DNA of 37,400 nt from Burkholderiales bacterium. GTDB taxonomy: Bacteria > Pseudomonadota > Gammaproteobacteria > Burkholderiales > Usitatibacteraceae. This document shows, one piece after another, positions 16,576 through 35,331 of the stretch. Below the pieces are notes generated by a model. That model made no database searches, was not told where the DNA came from, and saw only the letters and a list, made by a program, of their open reading frames with translations. Location of the stretch: contig JAFMJY010000011.1 of assembly GCA_017853245.1 (NCBI GenBank), positions 1 through 37,400 on the forward strand. The letters run 5' to 3'. How positions within the stretch are numbered: the stretch's first letter is position 1; every line of letters starts with the position of its first letter. The position numbers were made by a program, and so were the translations under genes.

Positions 16576-17946
16576 TCAGGCGGTGGCGAGGCGCAGGGTC
16601 AGCCCCCGGGTGCGCTCGGCGAGCGCGCCATAGCCGCGCTCGACGCGCGGCACGCCGGTGATCGTGGTCTCGCCTTCGGCGAGGGCGGCGGCCATCACGT
16701 ACGCAAGGCCCGCCCGCAGGTCGGGCACCTCCAGTGAGAGGCCCTCGGAGCGCAGCTTCGTCGGCCCCTGGATGATGGCGCTGTGGGGAAAATCGCGGCC
16801 CCGGAAGCGACAGGCGACGGAGCCCAGGCAATGCGTCTCGATCTGCGTGCGAGCCCCCAGCGCAGCCAGGGCCTCGAGGTAATCGAAGCGGCGCTCGTAC
16901 ACCGTCTCGTGAATGATCGACGTCCCCGAGGCTTGCGTGAGCATCACCGCGAAGGGCTGCTGCCAATCGGTGGCGAAACCCGGGAACACATCCGTCTCCA
17001 GCACGATGCTCTTGAGCGGGCGCCGGCGGAAGAACCGGATTGAGCGCGGCCCCTCGATGGAAACACCCCCGCCGACGGCGTTGAAGGGCCCGAAAAAGTT
17101 GATGAGCGTGGCGGGGTCGATGCCGTCCACTGTGATGTCGCCATCCGTGGCTGCGGCGAGCGCGGCCCAGGAAGCGGCCTCGATGCGGTCGCCCAGCACC
17201 TCGAACGTGGTGGCGTAAAGGCGGTCGACGCCCTCGATCACGAGCTCACGGTTCGGGCGCAGCTGTATGCGCGCGCCCATGGCATTGAGGAGCGTGATGA
17301 GCGCGATGATTTCCGGCTCGGTGGCGACGTTTTCGATGATGCTGGTGCCGCGCGCGAGCACGCCCAGGAACAGGCAGCTCTCGGTGGCGCCCACGGAGGG
17401 GTAGGGCAGCCGGTAGTGGCAGGCGTTGAGCGGGCCGTGGCGCCTCGCGCGGTAGCCGTCCTTGGCAATCTCGATGTCGGCGCCGAAGAGCCGCGCCGCG
17501 TCCAGGTGGAAATCCACCGGGCGGGCGCCGATGTTGCAGCCGGAGACCACGGGCACGTGCGCGGCGCCGAGCCGGTGCAGCAGCACGCCGAGCAGCAGAA
17601 TGGGAATGCGGTTCGAGCCGCTGTCCGGCACCGGCACGTCCGCGGAGGCCAGGGCCGAGGCGTCAATCTCCAGCACGCCCTCGCTGGGCCAGGCGAGCTT
17701 CGCGCCGGCGGCCGCCAGCAGCTCGCAGGTGATGTCGACGTCACCGATGCGGGGTGCGTTGAGGAGCGTGGTTTTCCCCTCGGCGAGGAGGGCTGCCACC
17801 ATTGCCTTGGTGGCGAAGTTCTTGGCGCCGAGGCCGCGGATGCGGCCGGAGACGGGCTGGCCGCCGTCGATACGGTAACGGGATGCGGGAGTGGCGGGCA
17901 CGAGAGCTCGGCGAGGGGGGATCGGTGAGGCTGGAAACTGTACCAT
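16576..17946 (-). CDS. murA: UDP-N-acetylglucosamine 1-carboxyvinyltransferase (MurA type)
   Basis: A 456-residue enolpyruvyl transferase of the MurA/EPSP-synthase fold. It keeps Lys42-Asn43 in GAKNF, the fosfomycin-target Cys137 and Arg142 in SGCNIGARPVD (135-145), PSVGATE near 183-189, and Asp327 in FPGFATD. It should transfer enolpyruvate from PEP to UDP-GlcNAc at the first committed step of peptidoglycan synthesis. The context (not the usual his-gene neighbourhood of betaproteobacteria) suggests a second copy, which is inference. The frame is open to 18075. I use the ATG at 17946, which overlaps the divergent dipeptidase start by 22 bases; GTG at 17901 (441 residues) would avoid that and still keep the whole domain. 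Confidence 0.85.
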   Translation of the reverse strand: MVQFPASPIPPRRALVPATPASRYRIDGGQPVSGRIRGLGAKNFATKAMVAALLAEGKTTLLNAPRIGDVDITCELLAAAGAKLAWPSEGVLEIDASALASADVPVPDSGSNRIPILLLGVLLHRLGAAHVPVVSGCNIGARPVDFHLDAARLFGADIEIAKDGYRARRHGPLNACHYRLPYPSVGATESCLFLGVLARGTSIIENVATEPEIIALITLLNAMGARIQLRPNRELVIEGVDRLYATTFEVLGDRIEAASWAALAAATDGDITVDGIDPATLINFFGPFNAVGGGVSIEGPRSIRFFRRRPLKSIVLETDVFPGFATDWQQPFAVMLTQASGTSIIHETVYERRFDYLEALAALGARTQIETHCLGSVACRFRGRDFPHSAIIQGPTKLRSEGLSLEVPDLRAGLAYVMAAALAEGETTITGVPRVERGYGALAERTRGLTLRLATA

Positions 17947-18587
17947 TGCCGCGCGCTGAAACTCTGCCTTCCTCACTCGTGCACCACACCGCCTCTGCCG
18001 ATACGCTGCACGCAAACTCCGATTTTCGGTCGCTGGCATCCGTGCCGGGCGTGCAAGTGGATTTGCGCTACGCAAGCGACAACAATTTCATGGGGCGCAA
18101 CCTGTACTCGCCGCTGGACTGTGCCTTCCTGCACCGGGAGGCGGCGCAGGCGCTGTCACGGGCCGCCGCGGCGCTTGCCCAGGCGCTTCCGGGGCACGCG
18201 TTCCTGGTGCTCGACGCGGTGCGCCCGCAGCGCGTCCAGGAGGTGATGTGGGCTAGCGTTTCAGAGGCCGACCGCATTTACCTCGCTGACCCCGGGCCCG
18301 GGTCGATCCACTCCTTCGGCATGGCGGTGGACCTGACCATCGTCGATGCTTCCGGGCGGGAACTCGACATGGGCACCGGCTTCGACGAGATGGACGAGAG
18401 GAGCCACCCGGCGCTTGAGCGCCGCTTTCTCGATGCGGGCCAGTTGTCCGTCGCGCAAGTCGCGAACCGTGAGGCCTTGCGAGCCGCGATGCGCGCCGGC
18501 GGCTGGCAGAACATCCCGACCGAGTGGTGGCACTTCGACTTCGGTGACCGCAAGCGCGTACGCGCGCAGTTTGCCCGGGTGGTCTAG
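17925..18587 (+). CDS. ddpX: D-alanyl-D-alanine dipeptidase (VanX/DdpX type)
   Basis: A 220-residue zinc dipeptidase of peptidase family M15D that cleaves free D-Ala-D-Ala. The signature SIHSFGMAVD (127-136) gives His129 and Asp136; E-W-W-H (200-203) gives catalytic Glu200 and the third ligand His203; Arg100 in VRP matches the VanX arginine. No signal peptide is visible from the chosen start, so it is probably cytoplasmic like VanX. The start is GTG at 17925, with GAGGGGGG ending 4 bases before it; a second in-frame GTG is 17 codons further. No vanH/vanA/vanS genes are near, so a nutritional role with DacB and LdcA is more likely than vancomycin resistance. Confidence 0.9.
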   Translation: MRLETVPLPRAETLPSSLVHHTASADTLHANSDFRSLASVPGVQVDLRYASDNNFMGRNLYSPLDCAFLHREAAQALSRAAAALAQALPGHAFLVLDAVRPQRVQEVMWASVSEADRIYLADPGPGSIHSFGMAVDLTIVDASGRELDMGTGFDEMDERSHPALERRFLDAGQLSVAQVANREALRAAMRAGGWQNIPTEWWHFDFGDRKRVRAQFARVV

Positions 18588-20035
18588 CGCGCGGCGACGC
18601 CGGGTTTGACGGCCGTGTTGCTTCGCGCCACCCAGTCGACCAGCGCGTCCAGGGCGGCTCGTGCGTCAGCGCCCTTGGCCCCCTGGCGGTAGATCATCGC
18701 GACCACGGCGTGGGGCTGCCCTCGCGCGTCGTCGACGAAGCCGGCCACGGCCCAGACGTCCCTGAGGGAGCCGGTCTTGATGCGCGCGCGGCTGGCGGCG
18801 GGGCTGTCGGCGAGGCGCCTTCGCATGGCGCCGTCGACGGCGACGATCGGAAAGGTCGCGAGAAACTCCGGTGCCCACCGGCCAGCGCGGGCCGCGATGA
18901 GCGACTGCGCGAGGGCCTCGGCGGAAATGCGCTCGCGCCGCGAGAGGCCCGAGCCGTTGTCGAGCACCAGACTGGCGTCGTCGATCTTGCGAGCCCGCAT
19001 CCACTGGCGAACGGCGGCATCGGCCCGCTCCGCGGTGGTCGAGCCTTCGCCGCCCCGCGTGCCGAGGACGAGGTAGGCCAGTCGTGTCACCGGGTTGTCG
19101 GAGCGCTTGTTGATGTCGAAGGCGAGCTCCGAGAGCGGGCGCGAGAGATGCTCGGCCAGCACGCGCGCGCCCTCGGGCGCGCGGGCCTCCCTGGCTCGGC
19201 CGCGCCACTCGCCGCCAAGGCCGGACCAGGTTGCCCGGAACAGGCGCTCGGCGAAGCGATCCCGATCCATCAGCGACACGCGCGTGGAAATCGTGCATTC
19301 CCGGGGAACCTTGCCGATCAGGCGAACAACCACGAGGCCATCGGCCGAATCCGACGTCTCGGGCGTCCGCCAATGGTCATCCCAGCGGGCGCAATTGCCG
19401 TCCGTCAGCTCGAGCGCGGAGTCGATGCGCACGCCATCGAGCGGCGGGTGCAGGCGGGTCGCGACGCCGCCGCCGCGCGTGTCGATCTCGAGCCCGGCGA
19501 GCTGCATCGCTACCGGCAGGGCGTCGGGGATGGCGTTGTAGCGAAACTCAGGCGCTTCGTCGAACGGGGGCAGGCCGACGTCGGCGCGCGAAGGCGTGAA
19601 AAAGGTGCGGTCCAGCACCAGGTCGCCCTCGATGGCGCGCACGCCGCGGTTACGGAGCGAGGCCAGCATGCGCGCGAGCGCCGCCTCGTCGAAGTCGGGG
19701 TTCGCTTCGCCGCGCAGCACCAGGTCGCCCTTGAGGGCATCACCCTCTTGCGGGGCGTCGGATAGGAGCACCGTTCGGCCGCGCCACGCCGGCCCCAGCT
19801 CCTGAAGGGCCACCGCGAGCGTGAGGGGCTTGATCGTCGAGGCGGGGGGCATCGGCTCCCCCGCGCGGTGCGAGAGCACGCTTTTCCCGTCCCGCAGCCG
19901 GATCACGGAGACGGAAACGGCCTGAGGCGGAATGGTCGCTTCCCGCAGCCGGGTGGCCATCGGCTCGGGAAGTGGCGAGGCCTGCGTGGGCAGGGTCGCT
20001 AGCAGGAGCACGGCAAGGGCGAACAGGTATTGCAT
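18584..20035 (-). CDS. dacB: D-alanyl-D-alanine carboxypeptidase/endopeptidase (PBP4)
   Basis: A 483-residue class C penicillin-binding protein that trims D-Ala from pentapeptides and cuts D-Ala-mDAP cross-links in the periplasm. It has an N-terminal signal peptide (cleavage after about residue 19), nucleophile motif S66-x-x-K69 (STIK), S312-D-N314, and K420-T-G422. The wide gap between the first two motifs holds the extra domains typical of DacB. The NGSGLSR segment (360-366) is also family-typical. The ATG start gives an intact signal peptide. The stop shares the tetranucleotide CTAG (18584-18587) with the convergent dipeptidase stop. D-Ala-D-Ala dipeptidase and LD-carboxypeptidase genes flank the locus, all acting on murein peptides. 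Confidence 0.94.
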   Translation of the reverse strand: MQYLFALAVLLLATLPTQASPLPEPMATRLREATIPPQAVSVSVIRLRDGKSVLSHRAGEPMPPASTIKPLTLAVALQELGPAWRGRTVLLSDAPQEGDALKGDLVLRGEANPDFDEAALARMLASLRNRGVRAIEGDLVLDRTFFTPSRADVGLPPFDEAPEFRYNAIPDALPVAMQLAGLEIDTRGGGVATRLHPPLDGVRIDSALELTDGNCARWDDHWRTPETSDSADGLVVVRLIGKVPRECTISTRVSLMDRDRFAERLFRATWSGLGGEWRGRAREARAPEGARVLAEHLSRPLSELAFDINKRSDNPVTRLAYLVLGTRGGEGSTTAERADAAVRQWMRARKIDDASLVLDNGSGLSRRERISAEALAQSLIAARAGRWAPEFLATFPIVAVDGAMRRRLADSPAASRARIKTGSLRDVWAVAGFVDDARGQPHAVVAMIYRQGAKGADARAALDALVDWVARSNTAVKPGVAAR

Positions 20036-20161: not shown

Positions 20162-22930
20162 GTGACGCGTAACCTGAAGCTTGCCCATTTTGTCGCGCTC
20201 GCCCTGGCCACCGGCCCGGTGGCGGCGCAAACCCCGTCATCCACGCCGCCGCAGCCCCAGAAAGTCGAGAAGGTCCAGGTCACCGGCTCGAGCATCAAGC
20301 GGGTGGCCGATGAGGGCGCGCTGCCGCTGCAGGTCATCACTCGCGAAGAGCTCATCACCCGCGGCATCCAGAGCGCCGAGGAGCTCCTCATGCGCCTGTC
20401 GGTGAATGGCACCGGCGCAGACAACCTCTCCTCCAACGTCGGCATCCAGCTGGGCACCACGGACCGCAACAACAATGGCAACTCGAGCGCCAACCTGCGC
20501 GGCCTGGGTGCCTCCAGCACGCTGGTGCTGCTCAACGGCCGCCGTGTGTCGACTCACGGCGCCAAGGGCAACGCGGTGGACTTGAACTCCATTCCGTTCT
20601 CGGCGGTGCAGCGGGTCGAGATCCTCAAGGACGGCGCCTCCGCCATCTATGGCACGGACGCGATCGGCGGCGTCGTGAACTTCATCCTCCGGCGTGACTT
20701 CGTCGGCGCGGAAGCGTCCGGCTCGCTGGATGTCACGGAAGCCGGCGGTGGCGACATGTATCGCGGCAACCTGCTGCTCGGCTGGGGAGACCTGGCGAAG
20801 GACCGCTTCAACATCATGGTGAACGTGGCCGTGGACCGGCAGGAGATCCTGAACGGCAACGAGCGACGTTTTTCCAACGGGTTCCAGCCCGAGCGCGGCC
20901 TGTCGCCGGACACGACCGGCACGCCGTTCGCCACCCACACAGGCCTCGCCGGCACCGCCATGGGCGCGTCGTTCCGCCTGCCCGCCACGGGCACGCAGTC
21001 CTACAACCGCGCCAACCTGCTGGCCTTCACCACGGGCTGCGAAAGCTATCCCGGCATGACGCAGTACCAATGGGAACTGTGGGCCACGCCGGGCTTTCGG
21101 TACGGCTGCGCGTGGGATTACGGCGGGTCGGCGGTGCTGATCCAGCCGGTGGACCGCGTGAATGCCGTGGCGCGCGGCACCTTCAACGTGTCCAGCAACA
21201 TCACGGCGATCGCGGAGGTCGTTGCCTCGCGCGTCGAGGCCACCAAGCAGTTCGAGCCGGTGCAGATCACCACCACCGGCAGCTTCGCCGGCATGCAGTA
21301 CCCGGTGAACGGCCCGTACTACCAGGACCTCTCGGCCTATATCCCGACCTTCAACCGCAACCTCCCCATCGCCTACCGGTGGCGGTGCGTGGAGTGCGGC
21401 GGTCGCACCATCTCCACCACCACGGATGCCTACCGCGCGCTCGTGGGCCTCGAGGGCGTGCTCGACGGCAAGTACGACTGGCGCGTGGGCTTCTCCAAGG
21501 CCGGCAGCGAGGCGGAGTCGGTGCTGGGCCGCGGCTACATGCTCACCGGCCCGCTCACCACGGCGCTTGGCAGTGGCCTGGTGAACCCGTGGCTTCGGCC
21601 CGGCGAGTCGCAGACAGCGCAGGCCATGGCGCTACTCGATGCGGCGCGCGCCGATGGCACGCGCCTCTTCGGTGGCGAGTCTGGCCTCACGCAGTTCGAC
21701 GGCGCGATCTCCGGCGAACTGATGAAGCTCCCGGCGGGCTCGCTCGCCTTCGCAGCGGGGTTTGACTACCGGAAGGAGAGCTACAAGTTCTCGGATGGCT
21801 CCACCTCGGCGCAGCCCACCTACCAGGCGCCTTTCGATGCCGAGTTCCCGTTCGTCGAGCGCACCGTGAAGGCTGCGTACGGCGAGGTGATCGTGCCGAT
21901 CATCAAGAACCTGGAGGCGCAGGTGGCCGTGCGCCACGACCGCTACAGCGACTTCGGGGGCACCACGAACCCGAAGGTGGCGTTGAAGTTCAACCCGGTG
22001 CAGGAAGTGCTGTTCCGTGGCTCTTACAACACCGGCTTCCGCGCCCCGAGCTTTTTCCAGCTCTACACCGCGCAGGGGGATGCTCCGGTTCCGGGCAACA
22101 TCGCCGACCCGGTGCTCTGCCCGCAGAACCCGGGCGACTTGTCCGTGTGCGCGATTCGCCCGAATGCGCGCCAGGGCGGCAACCCGACACTCGAGCCCGA
22201 GACCTCCAAGCAGTGGACAGTGGGCTTCGTGTTCGAGCCTGCGCCCTGGGTCTCCGGCAGCGTCGATCTCTGGCAGATCCGCCGCTTCGACCGGATCTAT
22301 GAACTGACGCCCCAGCAGGTAATCGCGAACTTCACCACCTTCCCGGAGAACCTCGTGCGCGGCACCAACGGCCGCCTCGATGGCCCCGGCGGTTACATCC
22401 GCGCCGGCTTCGTGAACGCCGATGGCGATATCACGCGCGGCACCGATGTCACGCTGCGCTTCAACTGGAAGGCGTTTGGCGCCAAGTGGGCGGCAGGCCT
22501 CGATGGCACCTATATCGACAGCTTCCGCTCCCGCGTGTTCAGCAGCCAGAACTACACCGAGTTCGCCGGCCAGTGGAGCTCGCGTGACATCTACCCGCGC
22601 TGGAAGCATGCGGCCAACGTCACCTACACGCGCGGCCCGTGGTCGGGCACGCTGGTGCAGCAGTACACCACCGGCTACAAGGACCAGGTGCCGTTCGCGC
22701 CGCCGCCAGGCTTCAACCCGAACGTGAAGGAATACGTGATCTACCACGCGTCCGTCACCTACACGGGCATCAAGAACACGTCGCTCACGTTCGGCGTGAA
22801 GAACCTGTTCGACACCGACCCGCCGTTCACCGCCCACAACCTGGACTTCACACCAGGCGCAGGCTGGGACCCGCGCGTGGCAGACCCGCGTGGCCGCTCG
22901 GTCGTGGCGCGCGCGTCGTACACGTTCTGA
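20162..22930 (+). CDS. TonB-dependent outer-membrane receptor
   Basis: A 922-residue receptor. After a signal peptide (1-23) comes a plug domain starting near 37 with VTGSSIKR (40-47), then S-x-N-L-R-G-L-G-A-S-S-T-L-V-L-L-N-G-R-R, and a beta-barrel ending in the usual aromatic terminus (A-S-Y-T-F). The VTGSxIKR subgroup is common in oligosaccharide and peptide uptake in proteobacteria rather than siderophore uptake. Several extracellular-loop cysteine pairs are present. The GTG start is preferred over the longer open frame because AGGAG at 20149-20153 lies 8 bases upstream and a proper signal peptide follows. It lies between dacB and the LD-carboxypeptidase gene, which hints at murein fragments as cargo (inference). 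Confidence 0.92.
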   Translation: MTRNLKLAHFVALALATGPVAAQTPSSTPPQPQKVEKVQVTGSSIKRVADEGALPLQVITREELITRGIQSAEELLMRLSVNGTGADNLSSNVGIQLGTTDRNNNGNSSANLRGLGASSTLVLLNGRRVSTHGAKGNAVDLNSIPFSAVQRVEILKDGASAIYGTDAIGGVVNFILRRDFVGAEASGSLDVTEAGGGDMYRGNLLLGWGDLAKDRFNIMVNVAVDRQEILNGNERRFSNGFQPERGLSPDTTGTPFATHTGLAGTAMGASFRLPATGTQSYNRANLLAFTTGCESYPGMTQYQWELWATPGFRYGCAWDYGGSAVLIQPVDRVNAVARGTFNVSSNITAIAEVVASRVEATKQFEPVQITTTGSFAGMQYPVNGPYYQDLSAYIPTFNRNLPIAYRWRCVECGGRTISTTTDAYRALVGLEGVLDGKYDWRVGFSKAGSEAESVLGRGYMLTGPLTTALGSGLVNPWLRPGESQTAQAMALLDAARADGTRLFGGESGLTQFDGAISGELMKLPAGSLAFAAGFDYRKESYKFSDGSTSAQPTYQAPFDAEFPFVERTVKAAYGEVIVPIIKNLEAQVAVRHDRYSDFGGTTNPKVALKFNPVQEVLFRGSYNTGFRAPSFFQLYTAQGDAPVPGNIADPVLCPQNPGDLSVCAIRPNARQGGNPTLEPETSKQWTVGFVFEPAPWVSGSVDLWQIRRFDRIYELTPQQVIANFTTFPENLVRGTNGRLDGPGGYIRAGFVNADGDITRGTDVTLRFNWKAFGAKWAAGLDGTYIDSFRSRVFSSQNYTEFAGQWSSRDIYPRWKHAANVTYTRGPWSGTLVQQYTTGYKDQVPFAPPPGFNPNVKEYVIYHASVTYTGIKNTSLTFGVKNLFDTDPPFTAHNLDFTPGAGWDPRVADPRGRSVVARASYTF

Positions 22931-22953
22931 TCGTCACCGGCGTCCGAGCTCAG

Positions 22954-22988
22954 AAGGCGCAGGGCGAAAGCCCTGCGCCTTTTTTCTT
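22954..22988 (+). terminator. Rho-independent terminator after the TonB receptor
   Basis: Perfect 12-base stem AAGGCGCAGGGC / GCCCTGCGCCTT with a GAAA (GNRA) tetraloop, followed directly by a T-rich run (TTTTCTT). It starts 23 bases after the receptor stop and ends 11 bases before the next start codon. It should end the receptor transcript and make the LD-carboxypeptidase depend on read-through or its own promoter. Confidence 0.93.
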
Positions 22989-22999
22989 GTCGGGCGCCC

Positions 23000-24028
23000 A
23001 TGCGTAGCCGTCGCCGATTCCTGTCGACGAGCGTGGCCGGCGCTGCCGGCTTGGCGCTGCCTGCTGTGGCGAGCCCGGCGCTCATCAAGCCCCCGCGGGT
23101 TCGCGAGGGCGACCTCGTGGGCCTGCTCGCGCCCGGTGGCGCCATGGAGGACGCGCAGATCGAGCGCGCCGTTCGCAACATCGAATCCATCGGCCTCAGG
23201 GTCAAGTTGGGCGACAACGTCCGGCTTCGGCGCGGGAACTACGCGGGTACCCCCGCCCAGCAGGTGGCCGACCTGCACGCGATGTTCCTCGACCGCGAGG
23301 TACGCGCTATCTGGAGTGGCCGAGGCGGCTCGGGCGCAGCGTTGCTGCTGCCGCTCCTCGACTATGGCCTCATCCGCCGGAATGCCAAGGTGCTGGTGGG
23401 CTTTTCGGACACGACGGCGCTGCACCTTGCCCTTCAGCGGTATGCCGGTTTAGTCACATTCCACGGCCCATCAGGCATCTCGACGTTTTCCCCTTACTCC
23501 GTCGAGCAGCTGCGCCGGGCCTTGATGGACGCTTCCGCGCCGCGTGTGATCACGGGGGCGGCGGAAAACGAGGCGCTCGCTGCTACGCGCCCGCAATTCA
23601 TGCCGAAGCTCATCCGGGGCGGGATGGCGGTCGGCCCGCTCGTCGGGGGCAACCTCGCCACGCTCGTCTCCCTGGTGGGCACGCCGTATGCGGCGCGCCT
23701 GCGCGGAGCGATCGTCTTTCTCGAGGATGTCGCCGAGCCGCCTTACCGCGTGAATCGAATGCTCACGCAACTCGCCCAATCCGGCAGCCTAAACGGCGTC
23801 GCAGGCGTGATGCTGGGAGTGTTCACGCGCACGGACCTGCCTGCCGGAGAGGCAACGCTCACGCTCGAGGAGACGCTCATTGACCGGCTGGAGCCGCTGG
23901 GCGTGCCTGTGCGGTACGGGTTTTCGTTCGGGCACGTGGCGCATCACTTTACGATTCCCGTGGGCGTTCGCGCGCGAATGGATGCCGACGCGGGCACCCT
24001 CACGCTGCTCGAAGGCGGCGTCGCTTGA
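23000..24028 (+). CDS. ldcA: Tat-exported LD-carboxypeptidase (peptidase S66)
   Basis: A 342-residue S66 serine peptidase that removes the terminal D-Ala from murein tetrapeptides. Catalytic residues are Ser136 in GFSDTTAL, Glu242 in FLEDV, and His312 in GHVAHH; the GRGGSG segment (107-112) is the usual oxyanion region. The N terminus is a twin-arginine signal (SRRRFLS, then a mildly hydrophobic stretch to about 26), so this copy works in the periplasm, whereas E. coli LdcA is cytoplasmic. Microcin-C-resistance MccF is a relative, but Tat export and context favour murein work. It begins 11 bases after the terminator and stops 4 bases from the convergent methyltransferase. Confidence 0.9.
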   Translation: MRSRRRFLSTSVAGAAGLALPAVASPALIKPPRVREGDLVGLLAPGGAMEDAQIERAVRNIESIGLRVKLGDNVRLRRGNYAGTPAQQVADLHAMFLDREVRAIWSGRGGSGAALLLPLLDYGLIRRNAKVLVGFSDTTALHLALQRYAGLVTFHGPSGISTFSPYSVEQLRRALMDASAPRVITGAAENEALAATRPQFMPKLIRGGMAVGPLVGGNLATLVSLVGTPYAARLRGAIVFLEDVAEPPYRVNRMLTQLAQSGSLNGVAGVMLGVFTRTDLPAGEATLTLEETLIDRLEPLGVPVRYGFSFGHVAHHFTIPVGVRARMDADAGTLTLLEGGVA

Positions 24029-26596: not shown

Positions 26597-27388
26597 CTAG
26601 CGACGCTCGGCCGGCTCGGTGAGGACGGCGAGGAGGGCGGCCGTCTCTGCATCCGGCTGGCCGTCGAACTTCGCGGGTCGGTACTTCATCTGGAAGGCGG
26701 CGAGGACCCTTTGCGACACCACGTCGAGCTCGCCGGTCTGCGGGATCGCGAAGCCGTGCTCGCCGAGCTTCGCCTGGAACCATGCCGTGTCGGGAAGCGA
26801 AGCTTCATAGGCGATGCGGCGCTGGGCAACCTTCGCCGCATCGGGCCAGACGATGAGCCCCTCGTCGGCGAGGCGCTTCCACGGAAACTTCGGGCCTGGG
26901 TCGACCTTGCGCAGCGGCGCGATGTCGCTATGGCCGAGAATGCGGTCAGGCTTGATCTGGTGGCGCTTGACGATGTCCTTAACCAGCGCGACGACCGCCT
27001 CGATCTGCTCGGGCGGGTAGTCCTCCCAATCGATGCCCTGCGCGGCGAGGCGATTGCCGGCATTCACGATCTCAATGCCGATCGAGCTCGCGTTGATATG
27101 GGTGTGGCCCTTCCACCAGCTGACGCCCGCATGCCACGCGCGACGGCTCTCATCCACCAGGCCGTAGATCTCGACTGGCTTGTCGCGCACCAGGTAATGG
27201 CTGCTCACGGGCCCCTCGGTGAGGACCTTGTGCGAGGACTTCCAGTCTCCCCAGGTGAAGTGCAGGATCAGGAACTGCACGCGGCTGTCCTGGCTCACCG
27301 AGCTATAGCTTCGGTCGATGGCGGGCCCGGTTGCACAACCCGCGAGCAGCAGCAACGAGACAGCGAGAAGTCGAGTGAGGGCTTTCAT
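26597..27388 (-). CDS. amiD: Lipoprotein N-acetylmuramoyl-L-alanine amidase (AmiD type)
   Basis: A 263-residue zinc amidase that splits the lactyl-amide bond between MurNAc and the stem peptide. The N terminus has lipobox LLAGC with Cys18, so it is membrane-anchored like E. coli AmiD rather than cytoplasmic like AmpD. Zinc ligands are His43 (ILHFT), His153 (GHSD) and Asp163 (VDPG), with catalytic Glu106 in IGIEIVN. A C-terminal peptidoglycan-binding domain (about 200-258) completes the AmiD layout. Its start overlaps the kinase stop by 4 bases (27385-27388). It would supply free peptides and peptide-free glycans for the neighbouring enzymes. Confidence 0.93.
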   Translation of the reverse strand: MKALTRLLAVSLLLLAGCATGPAIDRSYSSVSQDSRVQFLILHFTWGDWKSSHKVLTEGPVSSHYLVRDKPVEIYGLVDESRRAWHAGVSWWKGHTHINASSIGIEIVNAGNRLAAQGIDWEDYPPEQIEAVVALVKDIVKRHQIKPDRILGHSDIAPLRKVDPGPKFPWKRLADEGLIVWPDAAKVAQRRIAYEASLPDTAWFQAKLGEHGFAIPQTGELDVVSQRVLAAFQMKYRPAKFDGQPDAETAALLAVLTEPAERR

Positions 27389-28305: not shown

Positions 28306-29893
28306 GCGATGTTTCCAGGGGAACAGCCAGACGAACGACCGGCCCCTCGATGCCGGTGCGGCTCACGAACGAGGCCGCGAGCCCCTGCACGGCATCAGCG
28401 CCCTGGCCCGTCGCGACGATCACGCGCCCACCTTGCGCGGCATGGGTGCTGAAGTGCCAGCGCTCGCCCCGCCACGCCCAGACTGCGAGGAGCCAGGCGT
28501 CTTCGCGCGCGGGCGCATCGAAGGCGATTTCGAGGCTTCCCCGGTTGCGGGTGACGCGGGCGCGTGGCACAGGCGGCCTCGCGTCCCCGAGCCAGGGCGT
28601 CGCGGGCACGAGCGTCGCGCTGGCATAGAGGTCGCGCGCAAGGCGGTCGGCGATGCCGCGCCGGTTCTGCAGCAGCGCGATGGCGCTGAAGTGGATGTGC
28701 CCCCCGATGCCGGGCTCGACACGGGTGGCCGCGACCTTCGCGAGAATTTCCTCCGGCACCCACGACTTGGGCGTGTCGTCGATGCGGCTGGTGAAGAGGC
28801 CAGGCCACACGTGGCGACGCATCGGATTGGCCCGCGCCCAGTGGGTGAGCAGCGGCCCGAAGGCCTGGCGCAGCTGGTCGCGAGGCCAGTACAGCTGCGG
28901 GGCGAGGTAGTCGAGCCAGCCCTTCTCCACCCACAACTCGACGTCCGCGAACAGCTTGTCGTACTGGCTGAAGCCGGTGATGCCCGGCGGTCGTCGATCC
29001 GGCCGGGGCAGGCCGAAGGGGCTGATGCCGAAGCGAACGCCCGGCCGCGTTCGCGCGATGCGATCGTGCAATCGCTCGACCAGCTCGTTCACGTTTTGCC
29101 GGCGCCAGTCCGCGCGCGAGAGCTTGCCGCCACGCCGCTGGTAGCGCTGCCACGCCGGCCCGTCGGGAAACTCCACCTCGCCGCCGCCGGGCTTGGCCAC
29201 CGGGTAGGGGTAGAAGTAATCGTCCATGTGCACGCCGTCGATGTCGTAGCGGCGCACGACATCGAGGATCACGTCGAGCGTGCGGCGCGCGGCCTCGGGC
29301 TCGCCCGGGTCCATCCACACCAGGTCGCCGTAGGGCTTGGCAATGGCCGGAGACTGGCGAGAGACATGTGTCGGCGCTGCCGGCGACTTTGCCGACGAGT
29401 GGCGGGCGCGATACGGGTTGAACCAGGCATGCAGCTCGATGCCGCGAGCGTGGCAGGCGTCGATCCAGGTGCGCAGCGGGTCGTAGTAGGGCGCAGGGGC
29501 GCGCCCCTGCTCGCCAGTGAGGTACTCGGACCACGGCTCGAGGGACGACTCGTAGAGCGCATCCGCCGCGGGGCGCACCTGGAGGATCAGCGCATTGAGC
29601 TTGAGTGTCGTGGCGCGCTCGACGATGCGGCGCATTTCCTCGATCTGCTCGCCAGTGGAGAGGCCAGGCCTGCTCGGCCAGTCGATGTTCGCCACCGAAG
29701 CGACCCAGGCGGCGCGAAACTCCCGTGGCGCGAGCGGGGGATCGGGCAGGGCGCGTGGCGTCCGGTCCGGCAAGGGCGTCGGCGACGGCTTGTCCGACGG
29801 GCCTGCCTCAGGCGATGGGGCGGGCGGTTGCACGGCGCAAGCGCCTGCCAGTGCGGCAAGGGCCAGAGCCAGCTGGCGGCGGCGCGGGTTCAT
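28298..29893 (-). CDS. digH: GHL10/DUF187 glycosidase lipoprotein, DigH-like
   Basis: A 531-residue lipoprotein (lipobox A-G-A-C, Cys19; proline-rich linker about 22-55) with a GHL10/DUF187 TIM-barrel domain from about 56 to 370. Key signatures are E-F-R-A-A-W-V-A-S-V-x-N-I-D-W-P (58-73), L-N-A-L-I-L-Q-V-R-P-A-A-D (99-111), H-A-W-F-N-P-Y (155-161) and catalytic-region D-G-V-H-M-D-D-Y (219-226). E. coli DigH (YddW), of this family, digests peptide-free ('denuded') glycan strands. The frame is open into the next gene; the ATG at 29893 is chosen as it gives the lipoprotein signal and overlaps the nagX stop by ATGA. Neighbouring AmiD would create its substrate. Confidence 0.9.
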   Translation of the reverse strand: MNPRRRQLALALAALAGACAVQPPAPSPEAGPSDKPSPTPLPDRTPRALPDPPLAPREFRAAWVASVANIDWPSRPGLSTGEQIEEMRRIVERATTLKLNALILQVRPAADALYESSLEPWSEYLTGEQGRAPAPYYDPLRTWIDACHARGIELHAWFNPYRARHSSAKSPAAPTHVSRQSPAIAKPYGDLVWMDPGEPEAARRTLDVILDVVRRYDIDGVHMDDYFYPYPVAKPGGGEVEFPDGPAWQRYQRRGGKLSRADWRRQNVNELVERLHDRIARTRPGVRFGISPFGLPRPDRRPPGITGFSQYDKLFADVELWVEKGWLDYLAPQLYWPRDQLRQAFGPLLTHWARANPMRRHVWPGLFTSRIDDTPKSWVPEEILAKVAATRVEPGIGGHIHFSAIALLQNRRGIADRLARDLYASATLVPATPWLGDARPPVPRARVTRNRGSLEIAFDAPAREDAWLLAVWAWRGERWHFSTHAAQGGRVIVATGQGADAVQGLAASFVSRTGIEGPVVRLAVPLETSRG

Positions 29894-31038
29894 GCGGTGA
29901 CGAACCAGCGTCGACGCCACATCGCCCACGCGATGATGAAAAACAGCGCGATGAAGGCGAGCGCCCAAACGAGGGACGCGTCGGTGGGCGAGATCGGCAG
30001 CAACTGGATCGGTGCGTAGAGCCAGGCTTTCAGGGAGACGGCCTTGGTGTCCGTGGCGATGGTGACGTTCTGGAGGATACGGCCGAGAACGCCGGCGAGC
30101 ACGAAGAGCACCAGCGCATTGCGCCCGAACTGCGTGAGCGGCAGGCAGAGGGCCCGAGTCGCCCGCCGAGTGCCTGGCTTGCTGCCATCCAGCGCGGCAT
30201 GAAAGGCCGCGAACGCGACGAGCGACCAGCCGGCCATGAACACCGCGTAGGACGGCGTCCAGAGATTCTTGTTGATCGGCATGAGCAGCGCGTCCAGCGC
30301 GAACCCTGCGTAGAGCGCAAGGAGCCCCGCGCCGATCATCCAGGCCGTGCGCGTTCTCGAGTCTGCGTTGCGTGGCAGGCCGCGGCCGGCGATGAAGCCC
30401 GCGAGCAGGCTCGCTGCCGCGGGAAGCGTGCTCACCAGGCCTTCCGGGTCCCAGGTCTTCGACTTGGCCCACAGGTGGCCGTCGAGGAGCGCGCGGTCCA
30501 CCCAGGCGCCGAAGTCGCGACCGGGCTCGAGCGCGCCGGCGGCGAACCGGCCATCGGGCCCAGGAACGCTGACGAGAAGCATGGGGACAGTGTAGGCGAC
30601 CAGCAACGCGCCGATGGCCATCGCGGCGGCGCGCGTGCCACCGTACACCGCGATGGGCGCTGCGATCAGCAGGCACAGCGCGATCCGTTGCAGCACGCCC
30701 GGGATGCGCACCGTCGAGAAATCAAAGAAAGGAAACAGGTTCAGGAAGAGGCCGGCCGCGAACAGGATGGCAGCGCGCCGCGCGTGCCTGGCGAGCATGG
30801 TGGAGGGCGCCACCCCCATCGCGTGCTGACGCGAGGCGGCGAGCGCCATCGACACTCCGGCCACGAACAGGAAGAACGGAAAGACCATGTCGGTGAAGGT
30901 CCAGCCGTGCCAGTCCGCATGCCGCAGCGGAGCGTAGATGTGCCCCCAGTCGCCCGGGTTGTTGACCAGCACCATGCTCGCCACCGCAAAGCCGCGGAAG
31001 GCGTCGAGGCTGGCGAGGCGGTCCGCGTCTGGCGTCAC
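29890..31038 (-). CDS. nagX: Membrane acetyltransferase, NagX / heparan-glucosaminide N-acetyltransferase type
   Basis: A 382-residue polytopic membrane protein with about 10 helices. It opens with L-D-A-F-R-G-F-A-V-A-S-M-V-L-V-N-N-P-G (about 10-28) and has H-x-x-W-H-G-W-T-F-T-D-M-V-F-P-F-F, the segment holding the acetyl-accepting histidine in human HGSNAT. HGSNAT moves acetyl from cytosolic acetyl-CoA across a membrane to a terminal glucosamine; bacterial nagX recurs in GlcNAc-utilisation loci. The GTG start at 31038 is chosen because it overlaps the ampG stop (GTGA) and gives the family N terminus. The job here may be to re-acetylate glucosamine of periplasmic glycan before import (inference). 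Confidence 0.88.
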   Translation of the reverse strand: MTPDADRLASLDAFRGFAVASMVLVNNPGDWGHIYAPLRHADWHGWTFTDMVFPFFLFVAGVSMALAASRQHAMGVAPSTMLARHARRAAILFAAGLFLNLFPFFDFSTVRIPGVLQRIALCLLIAAPIAVYGGTRAAAMAIGALLVAYTVPMLLVSVPGPDGRFAAGALEPGRDFGAWVDRALLDGHLWAKSKTWDPEGLVSTLPAAASLLAGFIAGRGLPRNADSRTRTAWMIGAGLLALYAGFALDALLMPINKNLWTPSYAVFMAGWSLVAFAAFHAALDGSKPGTRRATRALCLPLTQFGRNALVLFVLAGVLGRILQNVTIATDTKAVSLKAWLYAPIQLLPISPTDASLVWALAFIALFFIIAWAMWRRRWFVTA

Positions 31039-32312
31039 GAGGCGGGCGCGGCCTTGCGACCGAAGGCCGGGTCGATGCGCAGGAACGCAGCGATGGCGAC
31101 GGAGGGCAACGTCGCCACACAGGCCCAGATGAAGAACCCGGGGTATCCCAGCTGCGACTGAATCCATCCGCTCACCATGCCGGGCAGCATCATGCCAAGC
31201 GCCATGAAGCCGGTGCAGATGGCGTAGTGCGCCGTCTTTCGCGGCCCGTCGGCCACCATGATCATGAACAGCAGGTACGCCGCGAAGCCGAAGCCGTAGC
31301 CCAGTTGCTCGAGGGCGATTGCCGCGGCGACCAGCGCCTTGGCCGAGGACGGGTCGAGGGCGATCCACACATACAGCAGATTGGGCAGGTGTACGGCGGC
31401 GATCATCGGCCAGAGCCAGCGCTTGAGCCCGTGGCGCGAGATGGCGTAGCCGCCCGCGATGCCGCCGACGGTGAGCGCCGCCACGCCGAGCGTGCCGTAG
31501 AAAAGGCCCACGTCCGCGGTCGTCATGCCGAGGCCGCCGCTCGCACGCCCATCCAGCAGGAAGGGCGCCAGCAGCTTCACGATCTGCGCCTCGCCAGCGC
31601 GAAAGAGCAGCAGGAACGCGAGCACGACGACGATGTCGCGTCGGCGAAAGAATGACGCGAAGGTCTCGACGAAAGCGGCGAAGGGGCTTGTGCCGGCGGA
31701 AGCCGGCCCGTCGGTTGGGGGGCGTGGCAACACGGTCCGGTGCCAGGCGCCCAGCAGGACGAAGAGCGAGGCGAGCACGCCGAAGACCAGGGACCAGCCG
31801 AAGGCCACGTCGCCGGTGAATTCACCCAGCGTGCCGGCCAGGTACACGAGCCCACCCTGGCCCGCGATCATCGCTGCGCGGTAGAAGGCGCTGCGCACGC
31901 CGACGAAGGCCGCCTGGTCGCCCTCGTCGAGCGCATGCAGGTAAAACCCGTCCGCAGCGATGTCGTGGGTGGCGGAGCTGAACGCCATCAGCCAGAACAG
32001 CGCGAGCGAGAGCTGGAAGAAGCGGTCCATCGGTAGCGTAAGCGCCACCAGCGCGAGCGCCGCGCCGACCGCGAATTGCAGGGCGACGATCCAGCTGCGC
32101 TTGGTGCCGAAGAGGTCGACGAGTGGTGACCACAGCGGCTTGATCACCCATGGCAGGTAGAGCCAGCTGGTGTAGAGCGCGATATCGGTGTTGGAGATGC
32201 CCAGGTTCTTGTAGAGCACCACCGAGAGCGACATCACCGCCACGTAGGGCAGGCCCTGCCCGAAGTAGAGCGTCGGGATCCACGCCCAGGGAGTGCGGCG
32301 CGTGGCGCTCAC
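31035..32312 (-). CDS. ampG: AmpG-type muropeptide permease
   Basis: A 425-residue major facilitator with about 12 helices and strong AmpG features: P-T-L-Y-F-x-Q-G-L-P-Y near residue 11-21, W-L-Y-L-P-W-V-I-K-P-L-W-S-P-L-V-D near 48-64, and S-S-A-T-H-D-I-A-A-D-G-F near 108-119. AmpG imports GlcNAc-anhydroMurNAc with or without peptides across the inner membrane. The frame is open 38 codons upstream with an arginine-rich, non-homologous lead; I chose GTG at 32312, which overlaps the murQ stop (GTGA). It links the periplasmic enzymes (AmiD, DigH, DacB, LdcA) to the cytoplasmic ones (kinase, MurQ, NagA, NagB-II). Confidence 0.92.
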   Translation of the reverse strand: MSATRRTPWAWIPTLYFGQGLPYVAVMSLSVVLYKNLGISNTDIALYTSWLYLPWVIKPLWSPLVDLFGTKRSWIVALQFAVGAALALVALTLPMDRFFQLSLALFWLMAFSSATHDIAADGFYLHALDEGDQAAFVGVRSAFYRAAMIAGQGGLVYLAGTLGEFTGDVAFGWSLVFGVLASLFVLLGAWHRTVLPRPPTDGPASAGTSPFAAFVETFASFFRRRDIVVVLAFLLLFRAGEAQIVKLLAPFLLDGRASGGLGMTTADVGLFYGTLGVAALTVGGIAGGYAISRHGLKRWLWPMIAAVHLPNLLYVWIALDPSSAKALVAAAIALEQLGYGFGFAAYLLFMIMVADGPRKTAHYAICTGFMALGMMLPGMVSGWIQSQLGYPGFFIWACVATLPSVAIAAFLRIDPAFGRKAAPAS

Positions 32313-33196
32313 TTCGCGATCGCTGCGCGCACGCTGCCGTGCACGGCGGCCAGACGCCGCCGGGCATCGTCGGCGGAGAGGCGGGCAGCCAGCATCACGA
32401 TGGCGGTCTTCACCTCGTGCTCGCACTGGGCCAGCGCCTCGTGTGCGGCCGCCTCGCTCGCGCCGGTGGCGTGCACCGTCAGGCGAAGGGCGCGCGCCAC
32501 CAGCTTGGCGTTGGTGGGCCGCACGTCGACCATGAGGTTGCCGTGGACCTTGTGCAGCCGAACCATGATTGCCGACGAGAGCGTGTTGAGCGCGATCTTC
32601 TGCGCCGTGCCCGCCTTGAGCCGCGTGCTGCCGGAGATCACCTCCGGCCCGGTGGCAAGCGTCACGCCGATTTCCGCCTGCTGCGCGAGCGGGGATCCTT
32701 GGTTGTTGGCGATGCCGATGGTGAGGGCGCCCGCGCCGCGCGCAGCGAGCAGGGCTCCCATCACGAACGGGGTGCGGCCCGACGCGGCGAGCAGGATCAC
32801 CACGTCGTTACGAGTGACGCCCGCCTCGGCGATGGCTCGCCGTCCGGCTTCGTCGTCGTCTTCCGCGCCTTCGACCGCCGTGCGCACGGCCGTGTCGCCG
32901 CCTGCGAGAATCGCCACGCTTCGGTCCGAGGGCCACGAGAAGGTGGGATGAAGCTCGACGCTGTCCAGCAACCCGAGGCGCCCTGACGTGCCAGCGCCCA
33001 CATAGACCAGCCGTCCGCCACGCTGCAGGCGAGGAACCGCGGCGTCCACCGCGCAGGCAATGGCTTCGAGTGCTGCGCGTACCGCCGAGGCCGCGTGCGC
33101 CTGGTCGCCGAGGAAGGCGTCAACCAAGTCGCGCGTGGGGTACTCGTCGAGCGTCGTGTGCGCCGGATGCGGCGATTCGGTGTCGGGAAGGCTCAT
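32309..33196 (-). CDS. murQ: N-acetylmuramic acid 6-phosphate etherase
   Basis: A 295-residue SIS-fold etherase that removes the D-lactyl ether of MurNAc-6-phosphate, giving GlcNAc-6-phosphate. Signatures are V-G-A-G-T-S-G-R-L-G-L-L-D (66-78), the catalytic glutamate in the following S-V-E-L-H-P segment (Glu81), V-E-G-A-E-D-D (108-114), and A-A-S-G-R-T-P (137-143). The frame is open upstream, but the ATG at 33196 gives the usual length and lies 4 bases after the nagB-II stop. It commits the operon to MurNAc breakdown via 6-phosphate rather than the AmgK/MurU route of pseudomonads. Confidence 0.94.
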   Translation of the reverse strand: MSLPDTESPHPAHTTLDEYPTRDLVDAFLGDQAHAASAVRAALEAIACAVDAAVPRLQRGGRLVYVGAGTSGRLGLLDSVELHPTFSWPSDRSVAILAGGDTAVRTAVEGAEDDDEAGRRAIAEAGVTRNDVVILLAASGRTPFVMGALLAARGAGALTIGIANNQGSPLAQQAEIGVTLATGPEVISGSTRLKAGTAQKIALNTLSSAIMVRLHKVHGNLMVDVRPTNAKLVARALRLTVHATGASEAAAHEALAQCEHEVKTAIVMLAARLSADDARRRLAAVHGSVRAAIAK

Positions 33197-33200
33197 GGCA

Positions 33201-34211
33201 TCAGAGGGTGAGCGTGACCTTGGCGAGGTGGCGGGGCCGATCCGGGTCGAGCCCGCGAGCGCGCGCCACGGCTTCGGCAAGCGGATAGAAAGACTGGATG
33301 GCGCAGAGCGCGTCGAGAGCGGGCTCGCGTGATGCGGCGATGGCTAGCGTCGCGCCCGGCGTGCCGGTCGGCGCCGCGAGCAGAACGCGCGCGCCGCGCT
33401 GGGCGAGCGTTTCCGCCAGTGCCGTGAGGCCTGCGTGCGCCGGGCCGCGAGGCGCAAAGACGAGCACCGGTTGCCCGTCGTGCACGAGCGCCTGGGGCCC
33501 GTGCAGGACTTCGGCACCCGAGAAGGCCTCGGCATGCAGATCCGCGACCTCCTTGAGCTTGAGTGCGGCCTCCTGTGCGATCGCAAGCCCCGTGCCGCGC
33601 CCGATCACCAGTAGCCGCTGGGCGCGGCTCAGCACGTCGACTGCGCTCGACCAGTCCGCCCGGGCCGCAGCCGCCAGCGACTCCGGCAGCGACCGAAGCG
33701 CGTCGGTGAACGCCGTATCCGCCTGCCACGCCGCCACCAACCGCGCGCCAGCGGCCAGTTGCGCGATGAAACTCTTGGTGGCCGCCACGCTGCGCTCGTC
33801 GCCCGCATGCAGGTCGACGACGGTGCCGGCGCTGGCTGCAAGTGGCGAACCGACGTCGTTCACGAAGGCGACCGTTTCCGCGCCTCCCTCCGCGAACCAA
33901 CGGGTTGCCTCGACCAGATCGGGGCTGCGCCCCGACTGCGAAAATGCGAGCACCGCGGACCCGGCGCGCGGCAGCGGCGCGTGCTCGAGGGTCACGAGCG
34001 AGGGCGGCAGCGAGGTCACCGGCTTGCCCAGCCGGCTCATCAGCAGGTAGGCGGTGAAGTGGGCGGCGTGGTCCGAGCTGCCGCGTGCCACCGTGAAGAG
34101 TCGTTGGGGCGGCGTGACGCGCCAGCGCGCTGCCAATCCCGCAACAGGGGCATCGCCCGCCGCGAGCTGCTGCGCCACGGCCTCGGGCGCCTCCAGCGCC
34201 TCTTCAAGCAT
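33201..34211 (-). CDS. nagB-II: SIS-domain glucosamine-6-phosphate deaminase (NagB-II)
   Basis: A 336-residue protein with two SIS domains, like the isomerase half of GlmS but without the glutaminase domain. First-domain motifs are RGSSDHA (43-49), SQSGRSPD (91-98) and G-D-E-R-S-V-A-A-T-K-S-F (137-148); the second has G-R-G-T-G-L-A-I-A-Q-E-A-A-L-K-L-K-E. The C terminus ends in the family tail H-L-A-K-V-T. In Shewanella and others NagB-II converts glucosamine-6-phosphate to fructose-6-phosphate and ammonia in place of NagB-I. Position between nagA and murQ supports that role. The ATG at 34211 overlaps the nagA stop by 8 bases. Confidence 0.9.
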   Translation of the reverse strand: MLEEALEAPEAVAQQLAAGDAPVAGLAARWRVTPPQRLFTVARGSSDHAAHFTAYLLMSRLGKPVTSLPPSLVTLEHAPLPRAGSAVLAFSQSGRSPDLVEATRWFAEGGAETVAFVNDVGSPLAASAGTVVDLHAGDERSVAATKSFIAQLAAGARLVAAWQADTAFTDALRSLPESLAAAARADWSSAVDVLSRAQRLLVIGRGTGLAIAQEAALKLKEVADLHAEAFSGAEVLHGPQALVHDGQPVLVFAPRGPAHAGLTALAETLAQRGARVLLAAPTGTPGATLAIAASREPALDALCAIQSFYPLAEAVARARGLDPDRPRHLAKVTLTL

Positions 34212-35331
34212 CCGCGAGGGCAATCGCCTCTCCCTCGGCGTACACGGCGGTGAGTCGCAGGTCGCGATCGAAAACGGCGAGGTCGGCCCAGGCGCCCGCC
34301 TCGATGCGGCCGCGGTCCGTGGCCCCGAGAAAGTCAGCGGCGAAGGCCGACGTACGACGCGAGGCCTCGGCGAGCGACAGCCGGAGGTGGTCGACGAGGT
34401 TGCGAAACGCCTCATCCATCGTGAGCGTCGAGCCCGCCAGCGTGCCGTCGGGGAGTCGCACGCCGCCGAGGCACTTGTGCACGGCCTGGCGCCCGAGCCG
34501 GTATTCGCCGTCGGGCATGCCGGCGGCCGCCGTTGAGTCGGTGACGCAGAAGAGCCGCGGCACGCAGCGCAGCGCGGCGCGAATGGCGCCCGGATGGACG
34601 TGCAGCAAGTCCGGGATGATCTCGGCGTAGTCCGCGTGCGCGAGCGCCGCGCCCGCCAGCCCGGGCGCGCGATGGTGCAGCCCGCTCATGGCGTTGAAGA
34701 GGTGGGTGAAGCCGCTCGCACCTTTCGCCAGTGCGTCGACTCCCGCTTCATACGACGCCTCGCTATGGCCCAGCTGCACGCGCACGCCTAGCGCACTCAG
34801 CATCGCGATGGCCTCGCGGTTGGCGTCGACCTCTGGCGCCAGCGTCACGACGCGAATGGGTGCGATGCCGTGCAGCCGGCGAAACTCGGCCTCGTTGAAA
34901 CCACGGGCGTAATCGGGCTGCGCGCCCAGCCTTTCAGCGCTGAGGTACGGCCCCTCGAGATGCACGCCGAGGATGCGCGCGCCACCTGCCGCGCGGGTGC
35001 GACAGTGTGGCGCGACGGCAGCGAAGGCGGACTCAAGGTCCGCCAGGGGCGCGGTCATCGTCGTGGCAAGCAGTGACGTCGTCCCGTGGCGGGCGTGCAC
35101 CCGCGCGATCGTGGCAGCCGCGTCGCCCCCTTCCATCAGGTCGCGGCCACCGCCGCCGTGCACGTGCGTGTCGATGAAGCCCGGAACGATGATCGTGCCA
35201 GGCGAGTCGCGCGCTGCCGACTCCGGGATCGGCTCGCCCGCGACTGTGTCGATGCGCCCGTCGGCGCGCACGGCTATCGCTCCGCGGATGAAGCCGGAAG
35301 GGGTGAGCACATGGCCGGAAACGGATCGCAC
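34204..35331 (-). CDS. nagA: N-acetylglucosamine-6-phosphate deacetylase
   Basis: A 375-residue amidohydrolase that converts GlcNAc-6-phosphate to glucosamine-6-phosphate and acetate. Metal and catalytic residues are visible: His56 and His58 (THVHGG), Glu126 (VHLEGPYL), His189 (LGHSEAS), His210 (THLFNAMSGLHHR) and Asp265 (VTDSTAAAG). The start is GTG at 35331 without a strong ribosome site. It is the first gene of the minus-strand murein operon, and overlaps nagB-II by 8 bases. No NagC, NagR or MurR regulator lies upstream; instead a divergent peptide-binding protein gene starts 90 bases away. Confidence 0.95.
   Translation of the reverse strand: MRSVSGHVLTPSGFIRGAIAVRADGRIDTVAGEPIPESAARDSPGTIIVPGFIDTHVHGGGGRDLMEGGDAAATIARVHARHGTTSLLATTMTAPLADLESAFAAVAPHCRTRAAGGARILGVHLEGPYLSAERLGAQPDYARGFNEAEFRRLHGIAPIRVVTLAPEVDANREAIAMLSALGVRVQLGHSEASYEAGVDALAKGASGFTHLFNAMSGLHHRAPGLAGAALAHADYAEIIPDLLHVHPGAIRAALRCVPRLFCVTDSTAAAGMPDGEYRLGRQAVHKCLGGVRLPDGTLAGSTLTMDEAFRNLVDHLRLSLAEASRRTSAFAADFLGATDRGRIEAGAWADLAVFDRDLRLTAVYAEGEAIALADA

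Follow-up and report, generated by a model that had tools for sequence, protein, structure and literature searches.

A clade of TonB-dependent receptors linked to murein-peptide enzymes in Burkholderiales and its possible role in muropeptide uptake

Tannerella forsythia uses murein fragments from its environment (PMC7670621, PMC5388701, PMC10465942), and Caulobacter possesses a TonB-dependent receptor for N-acetylglucosamine (GlcNAc) in its nag cluster, CCNA_00452-00458 (PMC13046382). A TonB-dependent transporter of peptidoglycan itself has been predicted from gene context in Pedobacter heparinus (Tang et al. 2012, PMC3400609). How murein fragments cross the outer membrane of Gram-negative bacteria is a question to which the literature examined, the available text on Tannerella included, gives no answer. 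The present analysis concerns a 37,400-bp stretch of DNA from a Burkholderiales bacterium of the Usitatibacteraceae (GenBank assembly GCA_017853245.1, contig JAFMJY010000011.1), in which the gene of a TonB-dependent receptor stands amid genes for murein degradation. This stretch, referred to as the window, is an entire contig (C176) of a 2.75-Mb genome in 202 contigs. Gene content and its conservation suggest that the receptor brings in muropeptides or murein peptides by TonB-dependent transport and so supplies a set of dismantling enzymes in the periplasm, a reading to which we assign a probability of roughly 0.65.

An earlier note on this DNA had proposed muropeptide import by a receptor placed between two murein-peptide enzymes and had stated that no established importer of this kind was known. 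The placement is as described, the adjacent genes being dacB and ldcA, and all 14 genes that the note named were confirmed to be present by domain scans. The proposed import gains partial support from a clade-wide linkage to murein genes, whereas transport itself we still infer. As to precedent, searches of the open literature showed no demonstrated TonB-dependent muropeptide importer, nor is one demonstrated in the available parts of PMC13046382, PMC13209645, PMC3551730, PMC11169705 and PMC2536512; the Pedobacter case, however, had already been predicted in 2012 (PMC3400609).

Linkage of the receptor clade to murein genes

The receptor gene (20162-22930, + strand; start chosen at GTG 20162) encodes a protein of 922 residues in which both the plug (PF07715, 69.2 bits) and the barrel (PF00593, 124.1 bits) score above their cut-offs; the plug family is matched at eight other places in the same genome. 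Its matches to the sequences of solved structures run mainly through the plug, the best being the colicin I receptor, BtuB and ferric-enterobactin receptors, and are uninformative on the ligand. The nearest named relatives come from Rubrivivax and Ideonella; that of Ideonella sp. A 288 (L040) is 67% identical, and AmpG-like, DdpX and S66 genes adjoin it. A SusC/SusD pair was considered and rejected: TIGR04056 gave 20.5 bits against a cut-off of 368, and the adjacent genes, dacB and ldcA, include no SusD.

Relatives were searched for in 200 genomes of the order, 28 of the family and 369 of the class, and in one public contig collection. The order searches scored at most four candidates per genome (200 genomes) or at most two (a later set of 399), and their tallies are lower bounds. 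The distribution is patchy: at least 10 of the 200 sampled order genomes have a receptor of ≥40% identity, and the class-wide search (at most two candidates per genome, E 1e-90) had matches in at least 2 out of 369 genomes, namely that of the window and G216. In a tree of 82 receptors, with six long-branch rows omitted, 29 relatives (≥38% identity) form one clade with a support of 100 by the Shimodaira-Hasegawa-like approximate likelihood ratio test (SH-aLRT); an earlier tree of 76 receptors gave a support of 97 for its 21 clade rows. The contig-truncated clade receptors L094-L097 enter the linkage counts and no tree.

For the comparison of neighbourhoods, the fetched regions were scanned with the window proteins as queries and a murein gene was counted within 8.5 kb of the receptor; a row was assigned to the clade if its receptor was ≥38% identical over the gene, and receptor matches shorter than 900 bases (e.g. 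L042, L128) were excluded. Flanks are often cut by contig ends, with a mean of 12.6 kb in all for clade receptors and 14.0 kb for controls. At least one murein gene accompanies 24 of 25 clade receptors and none of 54 other TonB-receptor matches (Fisher p 2e-19, uncorrected for shared ancestry). In two of these controls (L143, L144) the sole partner gene is one for SBP_bac_5, which was not scored as murein, and the TonB regions of the window's own genome (L129-L133), which stand outside the 54, match no query at all. The later search of 399 order genomes, some of them already seen, added eight orthologues (47-49% identity) and four paralogues (35-37%) that were new: every one of the eight has dacB and one or more further murein genes nearby, and none of the four has any. 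The later control L157 shows a MurA/AroA-type match (32%) that does not belong to the counted set, and OppB/OppC-type matches occur at L155. The co-occurrence of receptor orthologues with dacB, ldcA and ampG that the earlier note had proposed to look for is thus strongly positive, in the later-fetched genomes as well; the contrary pattern, orthologues beside iron or vitamin genes with no murein enzymes, was not seen among the annotated neighbours, which are not all neighbours. What began as a conjecture from a single locus thereby becomes an association across the clade that has passed a test by prediction.

The partners differ greatly in constancy. Within 8.5 kb of the 25 receptors, S66 enzymes occur 21 times, PBP4 18 times, and DdpX and AmiD 14 times each; AmpH-like and AstE-like proteins follow with 12 each, BadF, GHL10, NagX and AmpG-like proteins with 6 each, window-type SBP_bac_5 with 3, NagB-II with 2, and MurQ and NagA with 1 each. 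Since the most constant partners act on murein peptides, the core of the association appears to be murein-peptide processing. The amino-sugar module is frequently located elsewhere or missing. It is wholly or partly adjacent to the receptor in some genomes (G000, which is the window's own, G069, G189, G038, G572), and in G113 the genes for SBP_bac_5, Gate, AnmK, nagA, nagB-II, murQ, ampG-like, nagX and GHL10 lie together on a contig separate from that of the receptor; the amino-sugar operon is, therefore, a separable module, which argues against a receptor for chitin sugars. Regulators at island loci are of the GntR-UTRA type (L041, L161) or LysR type (G056, L147), and at L041 the GntR-UTRA gene adjoins nagA. 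The same locus is a variant (L041:14177-20450) that additionally encodes another S66 enzyme, a sodium symporter and a phosphodiester-glycosidase (NAGPA) protein, and the island of G069 holds a second GHL10 glycosidase (L060:11713-13254) between murQ and nagB-II on the opposite strand.

A related receptor clade of 14 rows (support 100 in the tree of 82) joins the murein-linked clade and five further rows in a group of 48 with a support of 89. Cyanophycinase genes adjoin 13 of its 14 members (L098, L099, L100, L102, L103, L106, L108, L111, L114, L119, L135, L136 and L157), and all five cyanophycinase-like proteins tested pass the TIGR02069 cut-off; at three of the loci, Lys/Arg/Orn- or His-type ATP-binding cassette (ABC) proteins were identified. 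The scan of neighbouring open reading frames (ORFs) of the non-murein receptors covered 59 of 80 listed ORFs. This second clade is likely to comprise receptors for cyanophycin fragments, to judge from its neighbours; one pair of a TonB protein and a cyanophycinase had been noted from gene context, as far as the available text goes (Tang et al. 2012, PMC3400609). Taken together, the two clades make the receptor family look built for the peptide products of bacterial polymers.

Gene content and accessory status of the island

To the left of the receptor lie genes for an AstE/aspartoacylase-type amidohydrolase (PF24827, 63.3 bits; about 14648-15658, start approximate, - strand), MurA (16576-17946, -), a DdpX-like protein of the D-Ala-D-Ala dipeptidase family M15 (17925-18587, +; PF01427, 117.4 bits) and the D,D-carboxypeptidase/endopeptidase PBP4/DacB (18584-20035, -; TIGR00666, 181.3 bits, cut-off 107.8). 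The PBP4 and receptor genes diverge from a 126-bp gap. On the other side, an S66 LD-carboxypeptidase gene (ldcA, 23000-24028, +) follows the receptor on the same strand after 69 bases. The intervening hairpin (22952-22983, +; 14-bp stem and a T run) resembles a terminator, which points to attenuation between the two genes; the scan gave 12 sites of this kind against 8.3 expected. A methyltransferase gene (24033-25049) in the middle of the island found no match in the other receptor regions scanned.

An operon of nine closely spaced genes, from nagA to the AmpH-like gene, occupies the minus strand, the distances between neighbours ranging from -8 to +12 bases. In order, the genes encode NagA, the GlcNAc-6-phosphate deacetylase (34204-35331; TIGR00221, 264.1 bits, cut-off 225.65), a NagB-II type glucosamine-6-phosphate deaminase (33201-34211; NF046059, 272.1 bits, cut-off 430), MurQ, the N-acetylmuramic acid (MurNAc)-6-phosphate etherase (32309-33196; TIGR00274, 313.3 bits, cut-off 302), an AmpG-like permease of the major facilitator superfamily (31035-32312; TIGR00901, 187.6 bits, cut-off 350), a NagX-like membrane acetyltransferase/permease (29890-31038; NF046061, 149.9 bits, cut-off 480), a GHL10 (DigH-like) lipoprotein glycosidase (28298-29893; PF02638, 195.9 bits; E 7.2e-70 to Cwp19, 5oq2), a BadF/NagK-type amino-sugar kinase (27385-28305; PF01869 over its cut-off, NF046058 below), an AmiD/AmpDh2-type lipoprotein amidase (26597-27388; phmmer E 4.3e-97 to AmpDh2, 4bpa) and an AmpH-like serine hydrolase (25205-26584; PF00144 over its cut-off, NF007943 below). 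The conserved neighbourhood exceeds the span from MurA to NagA given in the earlier note: it takes in the AstE-like gene on the left and, on the right, an SBP_bac_5 periplasmic binding protein (35422-37002, +; PF00496, 294 bits; DppA/HbpA-like by phmmer) and the start of a Gate-domain membrane protein (37041-37400, +), whose 5' part is cut by the contig end and whose remainder lies on contig C55. Start sites of the window genes were refined after the initial ORF calls.

MurQ, NagA, PBP4 and MurA pass the cut-offs of the nearest named NCBIfam models, the first two within one operon in which the nagA/nagB-II/murQ gaps are -8 and +4 bases. LdcA (167.9 bits against 378 for the equivalog NF008424), DdpX (153.9/176), AmpH (52.1/266), the NagK kinase (72.8/370) and AmpD (92.1/143) fall below the nearest cut-off, as do AmpG, NagX and NagB-II, and these names are to be read at the family level only. 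In the LdcA protein both S66 domains (PF02016/PF17676) are over their cut-offs; the S66 family includes MccF-type enzymes too. MurA, listed in the earlier note as an island member, is present, but it is the only MurA found in the window genome at E 1e-40 and its type recurs in one other region only (L093), so that it is probably biosynthetic and outside the core. The MurA proteins of the window genome (G000) and of G572, each the only one found in its genome, are divergent (398 and 412 bits), whereas five other genomes reach 577-585 bits; a replacement of the essential enzyme is possible.

Export signals were judged by eye, without a predictor. The window LdcA starts with a twin-arginine-like stretch, and 17 of 22 S66 rows inspected have such a stretch, three of the other five being distant S66 copies; a lipobox-like stretch is present in 14 of 14 AmiD rows and 7 of 8 GHL10 rows. 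No signal peptide was seen in this way for DdpX and the AstE-like protein. E. coli LdcA is cytoplasmic; with twin-arginine S66 enzymes, tetrapeptide trimming would occur in the periplasm.

At the inner membrane the loci differ. In Rubrivivax, the receptor gene is directly followed by genes for OppB- and OppC-type permeases, two ABC ATPases of the oligopeptide type, a protein with a beta-lactamase fold and a member of the LdcA family. At other loci an SBP_bac_5 protein is found repeatedly, as is a Gate-domain (PF07670) protein of 412 residues, whose window fragment is 66% identical to the L043 protein. SBP_bac_5 is also the family of the binding proteins of YejBEF-YepA and OppBCDF-MppA. The Gate protein was found in 21 of 23 receptor-bearing genomes (absent from G068 and G216) and in none of 16 without a clade receptor, 12 of which are non-congeners hand-picked from the results of the 200-genome order search (Fisher p 4e-9, uncorrected for relatedness). 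At four loci (L146, L148, L150, L151) the Gate and dacB matches stand on one strand, 27-35 bases apart. In Bacillus, dacB forms an operon with spmA and spmB, and the Gate-domain protein presumably resembles SpmA/SpmB; a new type of carrier is possible. The Gate gene (also at L158:4525-5451) often adjoins an SBP_bac_5 gene, and no Opp-type permease match was obtained nearby in those regions.

The island is accessory. Elsewhere, the window genome has an AmpG on contig C53 that passes the cut-off (489 bits), in contrast to the island copy, as well as NagZ on C141 and AnmK on C60. AmpG, MurQ, NagZ and AnmK were compared in 19 genomes, including four of the seven known congeners. These four have strong AmpG, NagZ and AnmK; no full-length MurQ, weaker AmpG type or close receptor orthologue was found in them. 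Full-length MurQ occurs in 12 of the 19 genomes, all among the 15 that bear the receptor and none among the 4 that do not. The accessory nature of the island leans toward scavenging, and the confinement of MurQ to receptor-bearing genomes speaks for an added catabolic system.

Whether the window is native to its genome calls for caution, given its G+C content, the receptor-less congeners and a listed contamination of 2.48%. At 69.1%, a value common to C55, its G+C is the highest among the stretches of its own genome that were measured (64.9-69.1%). Contig C55 overlaps the window end by 55 identical bases. In a contamination check, Ung was present in one of five genomes, the window's own, which is uninformative. 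An Rfam scan of the window gave no match, and a sigma-70 scan gave 2 sites against 0.9 expected, likewise an uninformative outcome. Apart from the island, a + strand run at 7512-13167 comprises genes for a cyclopropane-fatty-acid synthase, an MFS_2 transporter, a DUF3833 protein, a short-chain dehydrogenase and a SnoaL-like protein.

A possible uptake route and competing explanations

Murein fragments of about 0.9-2 kDa exceed the usual porin limit. The gene set could handle them in the following manner: The receptor would take in muropeptides or peptides derived from murein, for which ordinary porins are too narrow. Processing in the periplasm would follow: AmiD may strip the peptides off MurNAc, PBP4 may open D,D-cross-links, the stems may be trimmed by LdcA, which is Tat-exported, and by the AmpH-like hydrolase, and the GHL10 enzyme may cut the bare glycan. 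Peptides would then cross the inner membrane via the SBP_bac_5 protein and a partner permease, presumably the Gate protein here and an Opp-type ABC permease in Rubrivivax; for sugars, the AmpG-like and NagX proteins would be the route. The BadF kinase, MurQ, NagA and NagB-II could convert the sugars to fructose-6-phosphate in the cytoplasm, where DdpX and the AstE-like enzyme could finish the peptides. The order of the steps and a mainly foreign source of the murein are likewise presumed.

AlphaFold2 on four receptor sequences reached a predicted local distance difference test score (pLDDT) of 28.8 and a predicted template modelling score (pTM) of 0.25, and the model was not used. Several findings weigh against the proposed route. 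None of the scanned ORFs was recognised as coding for a secreted muramidase. The 13.3 kb fetched around one clade member (L087:1-13300, from G216) contain no murein gene; the neighbours of this receptor are another TonB-receptor barrel, a flavin monooxygenase-like gene and an S9-type peptidase gene, and it may have lost or changed its cargo. In G596, a PepSY_TM gene (L147:788-1942; one of 30 ORFs scanned) lies about 6.5 kb from a clade receptor; the PepSY_TM family often goes with iron uptake, and the gene would fit an iron receptor, which is a mild point. Two receptor-bearing genomes with good assemblies (G152, G583) are without MurQ, and 7 of the 19 genomes compared, all receptor-bearing (G572, G069, G189, G575, G113, G056, G068), have only weaker AmpG types. 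Finally, the loci share ancestry, so that the counts are not independent events.

In the seven genomes with weaker AmpG types only, the island carrier may serve ordinary recycling, and these genomes thus favour an explanation by recapture, in which the receptor would retrieve muropeptides that the cell itself has shed across its outer membrane. The presence of recycling-type genes (MurQ, NagA, AmpG-like, AmiD, and AnmK in G113) at the loci or in their company points the same way, but the window genome has a stronger AmpG, NagZ and AnmK outside the island, which the tested congeners do without, and we regard recapture as improbable. Somewhat less probable still is a receptor for other peptides or a metal complex, with the murein enzymes serving envelope remodelling under the same control. 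TonB receptors obtained with the same query adjoin cyanophycinase or peptide ABC transporter genes, so that the family may take peptides generally, and DdpX- and AmiD-type enzymes are metalloenzymes, to which the PepSY_TM gene at L147 may be added. The partners are, however, specific to murein chemistry, several loci hold an amino-sugar route, and no iron or vitamin uptake gene was recognised among the window ORFs scanned (14.6-37.4 kb); biotin ligase and pantothenate kinase genes lie at 0.8-2.6 kb of the window, 17 kb away.

The window's NagA, NagB-II, NagX and kinase genes would suit a receptor for GlcNAc or chito-oligosaccharides, such as stands in the nag cluster of Caulobacter (PMC13046382). 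Near the 25 clade receptors (8.5 kb), sugar genes accompany a minority and peptide enzymes most, and no chitinase was recognised among the window ORFs scanned, which makes a sugar receptor very unlikely. An equally slim chance is left to gene order inherited without function: the loci are related by descent, but in four families of the taxonomic order (f1, f8, f22, f38), receptors down to 40% identity keep their partners in altered gene orders, and this variation between loci indicates that the linkage is not one frozen block.

Import of murein peptides or muropeptides thus stays our preferred reading. If it holds, muropeptides would join the cargoes of TonB-dependent receptors and the murein of dead cells would have a route back into food webs. 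A bolder version is rather doubtful, though worth stating: a complete TonB-energised system for eating the walls of other bacteria, with a receptor family devoted to muropeptides, whether monomeric or cross-linked, a line of exported enzymes that dismantle them, a new inner-membrane carrier that accompanies it and is composed of SBP_bac_5 and Gate (SpmA/SpmB-like) proteins, and kinship to receptors for cyanophycin fragments. One receptor lineage would then serve cell-bound bacterial polymers in general. The clade is defined by sequence and gene neighbours and has one member in a named Ideonella strain, so that the question becomes directly testable.

Comparison with known systems

A TonB-dependent receptor with cognate hydrolases is a known design; the searches of the open literature brought up no published case in which murein peptides are the cargo and such a gene set recurs as consistently across a phylogeny. 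The Pedobacter heparinus protein is alike in that it is TonB-dependent and its neighbouring genes predict peptidoglycan uptake, and unlike in that it belongs to another organism, is likened here by its description and has no experiment reported in the available text (PMC3400609). The Caulobacter cluster also combines a TonB receptor with nagA and nagB homologues, but it has a phosphotransferase system permease and a beta-N-acetylhexosaminidase, whereas the window has murein-peptide enzymes (PMC13046382). YejBEF-YepA and OppBCDF-MppA share the binding-protein-dependent uptake of murein fragments at the inner membrane; they are inner-membrane steps, and the available text mentions no TonB receptor with them (PMC13209645). 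For the Tannerella forsythia cluster (Tanf_08345 to 08385: AmpG, MurT, MurK, MurQ), the available parts of the papers mention neither an outer-membrane receptor nor TonB (PMC7670621, PMC5388701, PMC10465942). This cluster resembles the window in its AmpG-type permease, amino-sugar kinase and MurQ; its setting is MurNAc auxotrophy, and to such a set the window adds a TonB-dependent receptor and an exported peptide-trimming set.

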